Source: Lachnospiraceae bacterium (GTDB taxonomy: Bacteria; Bacillota; Clostridia; Lachnospirales; Lachnospiraceae). From it: 42,148 nt of DNA. The number at the start of each line of letters is the position of its first letter. Positions within the stretch are counted from its first letter, which is position 1. The position numbers were made by a program, and so were the translations under genes. Below are positions 1 through 4,756 of the stretch, piece after piece. The stretch lies in assembly GCA_017542245.1 (NCBI GenBank), contig JAFXXN010000106.1, positions 1 to 42,148 of the forward strand. The letters are read 5' to 3'. Under the pieces are notes generated by a model that made no database searches, was not told the DNA's origin, and was given only the letters and a program-made list of their open reading frames with translations.

Positions 1-1872
1 CTTCTCTATCTCATCAAAAAGCACAACAGAGTAAGGATTTTTTCTGATCTTCTCACTCAACTGCCCGCCTTCATCATAACCGACATACCCGGGAGGGGAA
101 CCTACCATCTTTGATACGCTGTGCTTTTCCATATATTCGGACATATCCACCCTGATCATAGAGTTTTCCGTTCCGAAAACAGCCTCTGCAAGAGCCTTTG
201 AAAGCTCGGTTTTTCCTACGCCGGTAGGACCCAAAAACAGGAATGACCCGATAGGTCTGCTCGGATCCTTCAGCCCGACCCTGCCTCTTCGTATGGCTTT
301 GGCAATGGCTCCTACAGCTTCCTCCTGACCTACAACACGTTTATGAAGGATTTCTTCAAGCTTTCTCAGCCGCTCGCTTTCCTCTTCCTTAAGCTTTCTT
401 ACCGGGATTTTTGTCCAACCCGAAACTACATCTGCAATATTCTCCTCGGTTACAAAGAGTTCCTCTTCTTCCCGTTCCTTAAGGTCTTCTGCCTCAAGCT
501 TCTCTATCTCCTTCTTCAGCCTGTTCTGTTTCTTCTTTATTTCACCGGCCTTTTCATATTCTTCGTTTTTAATAGCTTCTTCTTTTTCTGCCTCAAGAAC
601 TTTAAGTTTCTCTTCGGCCGCTTTCTTCCTGGGGGAATCGGAATACGTTTCAAGCCTGACCTTTGAAGCTGCTTCATCCATCAGATCGATTGCCTTATCG
701 GGAAGAAATCTGTCATTAATATATCTTGAAGAAAGCTTTACTGCTGCCTCTAACGCACCGTCAGTTATAGAAACCTTATGATGTGCTTCATAAGCCGGGC
801 GAAGTCCTTTTAGAATAGCAAGGGACTCTTCCGCGGTAGGTTCTTCCACATCTATTGGCTGAAAACGACGCTCAAGGGCGGCATCCTTCTCAATATACTT
901 CCTATACTCCTCACGGGTAGTAGCACCTATAAGCTGAAGTTCACCGCGTGCAAGTGACGGTTTCAGTATGTTTGAAGCATCCAGCGCGCCTTCCGCTCCT
1001 CCGGCTCCGATGATGGTATGAAGTTCATCAAGGAACAGTATAACGTCTTTGGAAGAAATAACTTCCGAAATAACAGCCTTTATCCTTTCCTCAAATTCTC
1101 CGCGGTATTTGGAGCCTGCCACCATACCGGACAGATCGAGAGTAACAACTCTTTTATCCTTTACGGTATCGGGAACATCTCCTTCCACTATCTTCATTGC
1201 CAGACCTTCAACAACGGCTGTCTTTCCTACGCCCGGTTCTCCTACAAGGCAGGGATTGTTCTTGGTACGGCGGCTTAGGATCTGGATAACCCTTTTAATT
1301 TCATCCACACGTCCTACAACCGGATCCAGTTTCCCTTCCGAAGCAAGTTTTGTCATATCGCGGCTGTATTTGTCAAGGGTAGGGGTTGCGCCCTTCTTTG
1401 AAGCCCGTAACGGCGATTCCGTCCGGAAATCTGCAGGATTGACATTTGCAGCACTGAGAATATCCATATAGATCTTCCTGATGTCAATCCCTATGGTATT
1501 CAAAAGCCTTAACGCTATACAGTCTCTTTCGGTCACAAGTGAAAACAGCAGATGTTCCGTACCTACTTCTTTGCTTTTAAACTTTTTGGCTACATCATAG
1601 CTTTTCATTATCACAGCTTTAGCACGCGGAGTGATATTGTTTATCTCTGCAAATCCGACTTTACCGTCCGGTGTTATAAGCTGATCGATAAGCTCAAGGA
1701 GCTTATCTTTCTCTAAACCGTTTGTTACAAGTATCTTTGAAGCAAGGCCTTCGGCATCCAGAAGTCCTATGAGTATATGTTCCGTTCCCATATAATTATG
1801 GCCGAGCTGTTCCGATATCTCCTCGGCTATCCTCATAGCCTGTCTTGCCTGTTCGGTAAATCTTTCGTACAA
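1..1872 (-). CDS. clpC: ClpC, AAA+ unfoldase of the Clp protease (3' end cut by window edge)
   Basis: Hsp100 ATPase that unfolds substrates and feeds them to ClpP in the cytoplasm. The first 624 residues are present. The N-domain (about 1-145) has two GTEH motifs (Glu31, Glu106) matching the two phospho-arginine pockets known in Bacillus ClpC. The first AAA+ module has a [10 protein letters not shown]-loop and an [15 protein letters not shown] stretch. A UVR-like coiled middle region follows near residue 450. The second module has GPTGVGKTE, and the window ends at its Walker B (VLFDEIEK). I chose the TTG at 1872-1870 because [10 protein letters not shown] is the family N-terminus and GGAGG lies 6 nt upstream; an ATG alternative would cost conserved residues. 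The gene starts 1 nt after the mcsB stop, so translation is probably coupled. Confidence 0.97.
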
Positions 1873-1873
1873 T

Positions 1874-2953
1874 TTATGCCTCCGTTTCTTCCTTTTTCTC
1901 CTCGATCAGTTCAGGAAGATTATCATTCAGATATTTTGCACGGTATTCATCCCTTTGGACACTTCCCATGCTCTTTTTATTATAAAATGTCTGTAAATTT
2001 CCGGGCTGCATCTCTATCATGAGCTTATGTATTTCGCTCCCGCCGCCCTTTACCTTTATCAATCCGCAATCCGAACCAAGTTTCAGCTGGGCCAAAAGTA
2101 CCATAGCATCTTTCTGCTGAAGATTTTTTGCGTATTTAAGTACCCCGTATGATCTGTAGACCCTGTCTTTAAGATCCGGACCGATATTTTTAACAAGTTC
2201 ATTTCTGAGCCTTTTTTCGATATTTACAATCTGGGCTGTTACCTGCTCCATGTTTTCAAGAATCTCATTCTCACTGACTCCCAGGGTTTTTCTGTTCATA
2301 AGCTGAAAAATAAACCCTGCGCTCTTAGATCCTTCTCCGTAAATCCCTTTCAAAGTCACATCAAACCTTGAAATTTCTTCCTGAAGAGCATCAACCTTCC
2401 CTCCCATCGTAATAGCCGGCAAAGAAAGCATATATGATGCATGAAGACCCGTTCCCGTATCCTGAAGCTTGGATGTGAGATATCCGTATTTTTCACTGAA
2501 ACAGTAATGAAGTTCGGAATCAATATAGTCATCTATCCGGTTAGCTGTTTTAAACGCTTCCCTTAAATTATAACCTGCATTTATAGCCTGGATGTGTATA
2601 TGATCATCCTCATTTACCATTATGCTGACACTCTCATCGTCCGAAATAATAAGTCCCGTCGGATCTTTCCTCCTTTTAAGAGAAGGTGTAATGGTATGGC
2701 TTTCTATCAGGCAGTCCTTATCAGTATTGCTGAGCCTGTCAACCCTGCAGGAATAGTACTCTTTTCCTTCTCTTGCTCCAAGATCCGGTGTTAGGGATCT
2801 GACGGCCTCCACTACTTTAAGTGCATCCTCCTCACTGAGCCGTGCCGGGAAATTGTAATCTGCAAGATTTCTGGCCAAAGTTATACTGCCGGAAAGAACT
2901 ACTTCATGATATGCTTTTGCATCATAATACCACTTACTTTTTCTTTTTTTCAT
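1874..2953 (-). CDS. mcsB: McsB-family protein (protein-arginine kinase fold), probably catalytically impaired
   Basis: Homologue of McsB, the phosphagen-kinase-fold enzyme that phosphorylates protein arginines to mark them for ClpCP. Length (359 aa) and blocks such as [19 protein letters not shown] and IYGEGS fit the family. Residues that bind ATP phosphates in the family are changed: the SSRIRLARN block reads SGSITLARN (Ser23, Thr25), NEEDHIRIQ reads NEDDHIHIQ (Asp116, His120), GTGLRAS reads GTGLHAS (His171) and RGIYGEGS reads KGIYGEGS (Lys202). The cysteine usually after GYLTS is Lys162. Glu207 in YGEGS and the C-terminal phospho-arginine-binding RDxxRA motif (RDEYRA, 334-339) are kept. 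The ATG start has a strong GAGGTGA site and overlaps the mcsA end by 20 nt. Family membership is sure; loss of kinase activity is inferred. Confidence 0.93.
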
Positions 2954-3632
2954 TCTTCACCTCTAAGGCTTTTATTTCATCACGTAAACCGGCAGCAAGT
3001 TCATAATCCTCAATTTCTATGGCCTGCTTTAACTTGTTCTTAAGCTCTGAAATCTTTTCTTCCCTGCTCTTTCTTGACGAACTCCGTTTACCGGCGGTTT
3101 TCTTTTTCGTTTCCGGTATCTTTTCCGTAAGTTCTGTTTCTTCCCCATTCGGAATCTGAAGTTTTTTATCAAGATCGGTCAGTTTTGCATCCGATCTTAA
3201 AGTTTGGGGAATACTGTCCTCTATCTCAATATATTTTGCGTAAGCCGGTTCCTTGCCAACATGTTTCATTCCGCCCTGCATAGTCTTAAAATTCTTGGCT
3301 ATCATATCCCGAAAAACATTATAGCATACAGGGCATCCCGTTCTTCCGGTCTTTAAGAAATCCGATTCGGTTGTCCCGCATTCCGGACATGTGGTCTCTA
3401 TACGGTTTTCACTTGTAAGAGCCTTTCCCCTGTCCTGGGCATAATTACTCATAATTCCCGAAAGAATGCTCCCTATTGCTGAAAGTCCCTGTCCTCCGAG
3501 CAATTCGTTCAAAGGTACCGCGGTATGCTCTGAAGCACACTGTTCGCAAAGATGCTGTTCCTTTTTCTGTCCGTTAATGATTTCCGTATAAAAAATCTTT
3601 GCCTGACGTGTCTGGCAGACATCACACAACAT
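2934..3632 (-). CDS. mcsA: McsA, zinc-binding activator of McsB with UVR domain
   Basis: McsA normally binds and activates McsB and helps control the CtsR/ClpC stress system. The 232-aa protein shows two treble-clef-like pairs, CDVC...CEQC at the N-terminus (about 3-33) and CPEC...CPVC in the middle (about 82-102), then a Lys/Thr-rich linker and a C-terminal UvrB/UvrC-type (UVR) helix pair containing EDYELAAGLRDEIKAL. The ATG start has GGAGG 6 nt upstream. It lies only 14 nt after the stop of the upstream cohesin-like gene, so it seems to be transcribed with surface-protein genes rather than behind ctsR as in Bacillus; no ctsR is seen in the window. Confidence 0.94.
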   Translation of the reverse strand: MLCDVCQTRQAKIFYTEIINGQKKEQHLCEQCASEHTAVPLNELLGGQGLSAIGSILSGIMSNYAQDRGKALTSENRIETTCPECGTTESDFLKTGRTGCPVCYNVFRDMIAKNFKTMQGGMKHVGKEPAYAKYIEIEDSIPQTLRSDAKLTDLDKKLQIPNGEETELTEKIPETKKKTAGKRSSSRKSREEKISELKNKLKQAIEIEDYELAAGLRDEIKALEVKNEKKKK

Positions 3633-3646
3633 ATATTTCCTCCGTT

Positions 3647-4708
3647 TCAGTCATCAAGCTCGTCATTGCCTTTCCTTGTGGCAAGCCTTATGACTATTAT
3701 CAGTAAAGCCATGGACAAAGCACTCAAAAGTGCAATTATAAGTGTCATCGTCGAAAGACTTTTCTCATAACTTTCCATGAGTTCCAAAGCTTCTATGGAA
3801 TCCGTCAGGGCTTTTGTCCCTTCCTGTTCCGGTTTTACTACATATTCCTTTTCTTCGGGATCATCTTCCGGATCGTTTTTCTTATGATCGTCATTTTCGC
3901 CTGTCTGATCTTGTTTTTTTTCCGTTTCGTCGGTATCCGATGATTTTTTCTCTTCCGGTTTTTGATCTTCTTTTAAAGACTCTTTTTCACAGATAATGGC
4001 ATAAATGCCTTCATCTCCGTTTTCGGCGGTTACCTTAATCTCTATCCGGTTATCTCCCTCTTTAAGCTCCGTATTTCCAAAAACCGAAACCTCAGCATTT
4101 CTGTCCGTAGCCAGTGCACTGACCGTCAGCCTGTTGGTTTCGTAAGGAACCGTAACATGATATTCCCTGATATCAGCAGCAAACTCCGGTTCCAGTTTCC
4201 CGGGATTTATCTTCAGTATGGCAAGGGTAGAATCCGAAGAGGCATTTTTTGCGGCAAGGACAGATATCTTGATTTCATTTGCAGATACTGACATCAGATA
4301 TCCTTCTTCAAGCTCATACAGTTCAGGTCCGTCCCTGAATGATATTACAGCTTCACCCCTGGCCTTTGCCCGGAATTTAATCGAATATTTTCTATGATTG
4401 CTGTAAGCAGCGGTTACATGATCAGTTATTCTTATTATGCCCTCTCCGCCTGCAATAATATCAAGTACCCCCGGAACAAATTCCAGATTATCTTTCGGAT
4501 AAAGTATATACGCTTCAAAATCTCCCGGCAGAACTTCGGCTTCAATATCAATATTTACATTGAAAGTATCTCCGACATTAACTACTGCCGTATCGGATGA
4601 CAGTGTTATATCCGCACTTGAAGCTTTTGCGGGGGTACTGCTTATTGACGCAGTCAAAAGCAATACCATAGATAAGACAAATAAAACTATGATCTTTATT
4701 CTGTACAT
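3647..4708 (-). CDS. Membrane-anchored cohesin-like / cadherin-like surface protein
   Basis: Predicted exported protein of 353 aa with unknown ligand. It has a signal peptide (about 1-31, hydrophobic core after MYRIKIIVLF), a cohesin-like beta-sandwich (about 33-150, with the VGDTFNVNIDIEA opening typical of that fold), a cadherin-like beta-sandwich domain (about 160-245, ending in VTAENGDEGIYAI), an acidic Lys/Asp/Glu-rich linker, and one C-terminal membrane helix (about 312-335) followed by a short basic tail. There is no LPxTG sortase motif. The reading frame opens upstream at a TTG (4756), but the ATG at 4708 has a perfect GGAGG site and begins the signal peptide, so I use it. It follows the glucosaminidase gene by 48 nt and shares the cadherin-like domain type with it. 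Domain assignments are by eye. Confidence 0.8.
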   Translation of the reverse strand: MYRIKIIVLFVLSMVLLLTASISSTPAKASSADITLSSDTAVVNVGDTFNVNIDIEAEVLPGDFEAYILYPKDNLEFVPGVLDIIAGGEGIIRITDHVTAAYSNHRKYSIKFRAKARGEAVISFRDGPELYELEEGYLMSVSANEIKISVLAAKNASSDSTLAILKINPGKLEPEFAADIREYHVTVPYETNRLTVSALATDRNAEVSVFGNTELKEGDNRIEIKVTAENGDEGIYAIICEKESLKEDQKPEEKKSSDTDETEKKQDQTGENDDHKKNDPEDDPEEKEYVVKPEQEGTKALTDSIEALELMESYEKSLSTMTLIIALLSALSMALLIIVIRLATRKGNDELDD

Positions 4709-4756
4709 AACACCTCCGGTTATAACCCGGCTCCAAACTGCATCTTTTTTTATCAA

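Follow-up and report, generated by a model that had tools for sequence, protein, structure and literature searches.

A McsB homologue beside mcsA and clpC in a Lachnospiraceae bacterium lacks residues reported essential for arginine kinase activity

The bacterial enzyme McsB marks damaged proteins for degradation. Does a McsB homologue with replaced catalytic residues still phosphorylate arginine, and what would it do beside mcsA and clpC if it does not? This question is raised by a locus in a 42,148-nucleotide stretch of DNA from a Lachnospiraceae bacterium (assembly GCA_017542245.1, contig JAFXXN010000106.1), hereafter called the window.

Residues replaced and retained in the window McsB

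The mcsB-like gene (positions 1874 to 2953, reverse strand) encodes a protein of 359 amino acids containing both the phosphagen-kinase catalytic domain and the C-terminal McsB dimer/receptor domain. Its start overlaps by 20 bases an mcsA-like partner gene of the zinc-finger type (2934 to 3632, reverse strand; 232 amino acids, four CxxC motifs, and a UVR motif), which matched PF02151 and also NF053706 (E value, 1e-31, under that model's cutoff). On the other side lies the 5' part of clpC (1 to 1872, reverse strand; Clp_N and AAA domains), which extends past the window edge. The McsA-McsB-ClpC arrangement is thus present. Directly upstream of mcsA is a gene for a cadherin-like domain protein (3647 to 4756, reverse strand; PF12733). 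The window McsB scored under the cutoffs of two NCBIfam models (334.7 bits against 385 for NF002194 and 321 against 500 for NF053707), a weak test, since a score of 500 with NF053707 is reached by none of 397 Lachnospiraceae or 291 Clostridia genomes either. A Bacillus subtilis control genome, which we take to carry the genes for PF00217, NF053707, and PF05848, matched none of these three models and is uninformative on sensitivity; it did match the McsA model and LMWPc.

When aligned with B. subtilis McsB, whose numbering is used below, the window protein carries R29S, R31T, E121D, R125H, C167K, R176H, and R207K. The codons, all on the reverse strand, are those of Ser23 (2885 to 2887), Thr25 (2879 to 2881), Asp116 (2606 to 2608), His120 (2594 to 2596), Lys162 (2468 to 2470), His171 (2441 to 2443), and Lys202 (2348 to 2350). 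Retained are H92, E120, R34 (window R28), and E212 (window Glu207; 2333 to 2335, reverse strand). The receptor residues R337, D338, and R341 (window R334, D335, and R338) are also kept, within an RDEYRA sequence (residues 334 to 339; 1937 to 1954, reverse strand) that is the predicted phospho-arginine receptor motif. Of the six arginines R29, R31, R34, R125, R176, and R207, only R34 remains; with R337 added to this set, five of seven positions lack arginine. A sequence-only reading of the locus had named S23, T25, D116, H120, K162, H171, K202, E207, and RDEYRA, and a codon check found all of them correctly placed. Its five replaced arginines are R29, R31, R125, R176, and R207, the lysine that it saw in place of the cysteine after GYLTS falls at C167, and the fold, Glu207, and RDEYRA that it described as remaining are indeed there, with both domains present and E212 and R337 to A342 aligned. 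The replacements at R29, R31, R125, R176, R207, and C167 set the protein apart from the McsB kinases of B. subtilis and Geobacillus stearothermophilus (PDB 6tv6, 6fh1, and 8wtb).

We take the functional roles of E120, E121, and E212 to be those of the corresponding residues of arginine kinases. The sequence-only reading had also counted Asp116, in place of the catalytic Glu of NEED, among the signs of lost activity. The change is real (E121D) and conservative, but it is weak evidence, since the subclade of the window protein (described below) has Asp in 9 and Glu in 3 of 12 sequences at this position and since NEDD also occurs in the McsB proteins of Selenomonas and Pectinatus, both with all five arginines.

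Several of the other positions have been mutated in B. subtilis McsB. Lilge et al. (2020; PMC7235348) report that R29K, R31K, R34K, R125K, R176K, R207K, and R337K each left no phosphoprotein signal in vitro; their account puts R29, R34, R125, R176, and R207 in the active site but not R31 or R337, and it terms the C167S mutant kinase inactive. For Staphylococcus aureus, it is said that McsB becomes active when McsA orients its catalytic cysteine (PMC12467219); with Lys at the cysteine position, activation of this type could presumably not run in the known way in the window protein. The phospho-arginine receptor site of McsB is described in PMC8370763, as is R194 as the carrier of the octamer phosphate in B. 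subtilis McsB. The window protein differs from B. subtilis McsB here as well, with Ala at R194 and, at the receptor's fourth residue, Gln280 for S285; Gln is found there in 12/12 of the subclade, and another ligand may be the consequence.

Clade-wide state, ancestry, and selection

An McsB was counted as intact if it had the eight-residue set R29, R31, E120, E121 (or D), R125, R176, R207, and E212, taken here as the catalytic residues. McsB was matched in 23 of 24 genomes of the genus; the exception, G408, is 64% complete, and G410 gave two sequences, so that 24 sequences were available, the window included. None of these 24 sequences, which represent a gut-bacterial lineage, has the intact set. 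The two copies in G410 (L132 and L133) are different degenerate McsB sequences on separate short contigs of the draft genome and are probably from two strains in one bin.

The genus falls into three subclades with differing losses. That of the window comprises 12 sequences from 11 draft genomes, 71 to 100% identical to the window protein. R29, R31, R125, and R207 are lost in all 12 and R176 is lost in 10. Ten members retain R34 alone of the six essential arginines that precede the C terminus, and 2 retain two. The receptor residues R337, D338, and R341 are kept in 12/12, whereas R337 is found in none of the 12 other genus sequences. A sequencing or annotation artifact was considered and is rejected, since the same substitutions recur in 12 sequences from 11 draft genomes. 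Alignment with McsB of Bacillus and of related Clostridia showed the five arginines lost in the window protein and present in intact kinases. At 88 positions, no fewer than 15 of the family's 16 intact McsB sequences share one residue; the subclade keeps 66 of these positions and has changed 22, all five arginines among them (hypergeometric P = 0.0007).

Several positions are constant in the subclade, some of them with new residues. Lys93 and Arg94, a gained basic pair (2672 to 2677, reverse strand), are each present in 12/12, as are His120, Lys202, and His86; position 162 is basic throughout (Lys in 10, Arg in 2), H16 is a further conserved histidine, and Ser23 is present in 11/12. Position 25 varies (T in 7, M in 4, C in 1), and two of the 12 have Arg instead of H171. 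These residues could supply a weak or substrate-restricted arginine kinase, acting through R34, E115, E207, and the new Lys and Arg side chains. In keeping with this, the positions of E115 and E207 are acidic in 12/12 (at E207, E in 10 and D in 2), and R34, like R337, is kept in 12/12. Such a kinase is nevertheless quite unlikely, because a single R-to-K change at each of the five positions left no signal in B. subtilis McsB (PMC7235348), the S23 and T25 positions are now uncharged, and the cysteine that McsA is said to orient in S. aureus McsB (PMC12467219) is Lys.

A PF00217 profile search of the window's own draft genome (97.06% complete and 8.58% contaminated) gave a single match, so the second, intact McsB that the sequence-only reading had proposed to look for did not appear in that search. 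Together with the single R-to-K losses reported for B. subtilis and the receptor pattern, this single match supports that reading's central claim: canonical kinase activity has very likely been lost from the window McsB, which in all probability does not phosphorylate arginine. The counterevidence that the sequence-only reading had asked for, ATP-binding residues supplied from other positions, may yet lie in Lys93, Arg94, and the Lys or Arg at 162, all of them newly conserved basic residues.

In a tree calculated without the catalytic columns, the genus sequences group together (SH-aLRT, 100). The genus sits within a branch (SH-aLRT, 97) that contains 19 further rows, of which 15 are intact McsB sequences and 4 are degenerate. 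The tree was calculated from 117 of 119 rows (the short G132 and G063b were omitted) by a quick search, and 37 of its 114 inner branches are weak. Because the genus is nested among mostly intact kinases, the degenerate state is derived.

Selection on the locus was estimated from dN/dS after removal of those pairs in which dS was saturated (26 of 66 for the subclade mcsB). The median within the subclade was 0.088 for mcsB (40 usable pairs), 0.055 for mcsA, and 0.049 for clpC, and the three least saturated mcsB pairs (dS < 0.6) gave 0.029 to 0.049; the intact kinases are mostly too distant for this comparison (101 of 120 pairs). The subclade mcsB is therefore under strong purifying selection, though less constrained than clpC. 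A relic decaying on its way to loss would fit the finding that only 95 of 397 Lachnospiraceae genomes match McsB, a few of them by fragments or weak matches, and that McsA was absent too from 51 genomes without an McsB match, except for one marginal match confined to the profile's end. Such a relic is very improbable, however: no internal stop codon occurs in the 24 genus matches, dN/dS is far below 1, and mean pairwise identity in the subclade is 80% in both domains. Low dN/dS and the retention of 66 of the 88 positions conserved in the kinases argue that this is not a decaying gene.

The window McsB shows all three features of a pseudokinase: a kinase fold, lost catalytic residues, and a gene maintained by selection. 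By descent and fold it is a McsB, but it lacks residues reported essential for the enzyme, and the name protein-arginine kinase should therefore not be given to it. Three observations go beyond the sequence-only reading: the state extends across the clade, purifying selection acts on the gene, and degenerate McsB proteins are common in Lachnospiraceae.

Degenerate McsB in the family and class

The last observation comes from the family sample. After G000 and G134 were counted with the genus, 93 of the 95 matching genomes remained, of which 87 were read, giving 88 sequences (two from G063); G138, G163, and G342 (weak or fragmentary matches), G205 (broken), and G291 and G375 (long matches) were left out. 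Sixteen of these 88 sequences from outside the genus are intact, two of them with Ser at C167, and 72 are degenerate. In 63 of the 72, at most one of the six essential arginines is missing; E120 is changed in 60, Phe or Tyr replaces C167 in 56, and R337 is kept in 8. Some differ by a conservative change only, so not all need be inactive. In view of the 16 intact sequences among 88, naming all McsB homologues protein-arginine kinase may overstate the reach of protein-arginine phosphorylation.

Fifty-two of the 72 form one branch of the tree. Most of its members (e.g., L038, L048, L063, and L070) are of the NGDD type, in which E120 is changed; C167 is replaced by Phe or Tyr, and H92R is frequent. 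They keep the majority of the essential arginines but seldom R337, nearly the reverse of the window pattern. The window protein and the NGDD type therefore have nearly opposite losses, the arginines being kept in the latter and E120, C167, and R337 mostly lost; both have McsA and ClpC at the locus.

Across the class Clostridia, McsB was matched in 200 of 291 genomes, three of these in Lachnospiraceae. The better-scoring McsB proteins of the other families were intact in 70 of 70 cases; all of them have C167, and R337 is found in 58. These were the 30 best and 40 hand-picked below them among the 150 best places listed of 197 genomes. Of 30 low-scoring sequences read, from 36 hand-picked low-scoring genomes, 17 are degenerate, 11 are intact, and 2 are fragments without the key columns, and the 17 degenerate ones carry seven family codes. 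These counts place degenerate McsB in several Clostridia families, with a concentration in Lachnospiraceae. Examples from elsewhere are L287 (G582), L301 (G534), L305 (G640), and L309 (G619). The degenerate McsB proteins of G582, G485, G534, and G619 resemble the window protein in having several or all five arginines replaced, but they belong to different family codes, have different replacement residues (Lys at all five positions in G582), and are low-scoring matches.

Partner genes and a possible role at ClpC

McsA was found at the locus in 16/16 intact, 71/72 degenerate, and 24/24 genus cases, and ClpC was found in 16/16, 70/72, and 23/24, respectively; several loci are short or are ended by the contig, so a missed gene may lie outside the locus. 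McsA and McsB thus occur together regardless of the kinase residues, and this co-occurrence is the chief argument that the window protein still works with McsA. The sequence-only reading had also noted that ClpC keeps both GTEH pockets. Both motifs are indeed present (1777 to 1788 and 1552 to 1563, reverse strand; codon check), but they are not evidence for phospho-arginine reading: GTEH or GSEH followed by GTEH is found in all but two of the ClpC proteins detected, alike at intact, degenerate, and genus loci, and so the pockets are not diagnostic.

On balance, we favor, with moderate confidence, the view that the window gene encodes an McsB pseudokinase that works with McsA on ClpC. The protein arose inside a branch made up largely of intact arginine kinases and has retained the McsB fold, the mcsA and clpC neighbors, and the receptor motif. 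The McsA-McsB complex would dock on ClpC and change substrate delivery or ClpC assembly, and a function as an McsA-bound scaffold or adaptor for ClpC is, by analogy, somewhat favored. The receptor motif is kept although no phospho-arginine writer is visible in the genome; its pocket may be occupied not by phospho-arginine but by another anion, either internal or from a substrate.

Published accounts differ on whether McsB needs its kinase activity to serve Clp proteases. In B. subtilis, MgsR had a half-life of 17.7 min in a delta-mcsB strain versus 12.3 min in a C167S strain, which the authors of PMC7235348 read as a kinase-independent adaptor function of McsB. They assign this mode to ClpX and not ClpC, report that deletion of clpC had no effect on MgsR, and concede that proof in vitro is lacking. 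The review PMC5506225, in contrast, ties the ClpC adaptor function of McsB, and its stimulation of ClpC, to the active kinase. The window McsB and the C167S mutant would share kinase inactivity (probable for the former) and a proposed remaining adaptor function (PMC7235348), but the mutant carries one engineered change and is taken as an adaptor for ClpX, whereas the state of the window protein is natural, fixed in a lineage, and found next to clpC. The involvement of ClpX rather than ClpC in this precedent weakens the pseudokinase-adaptor view, as do the Gln in place of S285 in the receptor, the higher dN/dS of mcsB than of clpC, and the fact that three of the lost arginines are now His or Lys. 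A search of open-license papers found none describing an McsB pseudokinase. Chlamydia McsB was considered as a known case and rejected, since in the literature that we located it is called a putative arginine kinase or its function is left open. With a natural McsB that lacks the kinase residues and is selected together with McsA and ClpC, the question becomes directly testable.

The His and Lys replacements raise a further reading, in which the old ATP site has become another conserved anion or nucleotide site formed by S23, K93/R94, H120, K162, H171, and K202 with H86 and H118 and serves as a ligand sensor or in other chemistry. K93, R94, and K162 could form such an anion site, and the constancy of H120, K202, K93, R94, H86, and the basic residue 162 in 12/12, and of S23 in 11/12, is unexpected under simple decay. 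We nevertheless consider this reading rather unlikely, as T25 varies, H171 is replaced by Arg in two members, and different residue combinations are seen in the sister subclades of the genus. A broader and equally doubtful proposal is that McsB has repeatedly been converted to conserved noncatalytic proteins in Clostridia and that in the window lineage the ATP site was rebuilt as a His/Lys anion site that would sense a ligand and gate an McsA-McsB adaptor on ClpC, giving a phospho-arginine-free McsAB-ClpC system.

The favored view of an McsB pseudokinase acting with McsA on ClpC can also be set against other genes of these genomes. YwlE-level matches (E ≤ 1e-25) were found in 0 of 24 genus genomes, two of which gave matches at about 2e-17, and in 15/16 genomes with intact McsB, 25/71 with degenerate McsB, and 141/302 without an McsB match. 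The YwlE-like profile was built from 14 sequences, all from the 16 intact-McsB genomes, and is biased to these; it matched solved YwlE structures at E values of 7e-33 to 8e-31, the best solved match being a chain named RpiB (4egs), with YwlE entries next. The absence of YwlE-level matches from the genus fits, but does not prove, a loss of phospho-arginine turnover. It is weak evidence, since nearly half of the genomes without an McsB match have YwlE-level matches, and in independent-pairs tests on the tree, YwlE and R337 alike yielded just 2 supported pairs. Some of the YwlE-like phosphatases of genomes without an McsB match lie in open frames of about 500 amino acids, which suggest fusions.

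The genus also differs from B. subtilis in lacking, together with a YwlE-level match, any CtsR match at E ≤ 0.001 (0 of 24 genomes). In the family, 1 of 397 genomes matched CtsR at E ≤ 0.001 and none scored above the cutoff; of the control genomes, only Lactococcus matched and B. subtilis did not. A GntR-type regulator had no match anywhere in the window. At mcsA-mcsB-clpC loci, where there is no ctsR, a gene for such a regulator is present in at least 14 of 16 intact, at least 61 of 72 degenerate, and at least 3 of 24 genus cases, some of the loci being short, and this regulator may stand in for CtsR in Lachnospiraceae.
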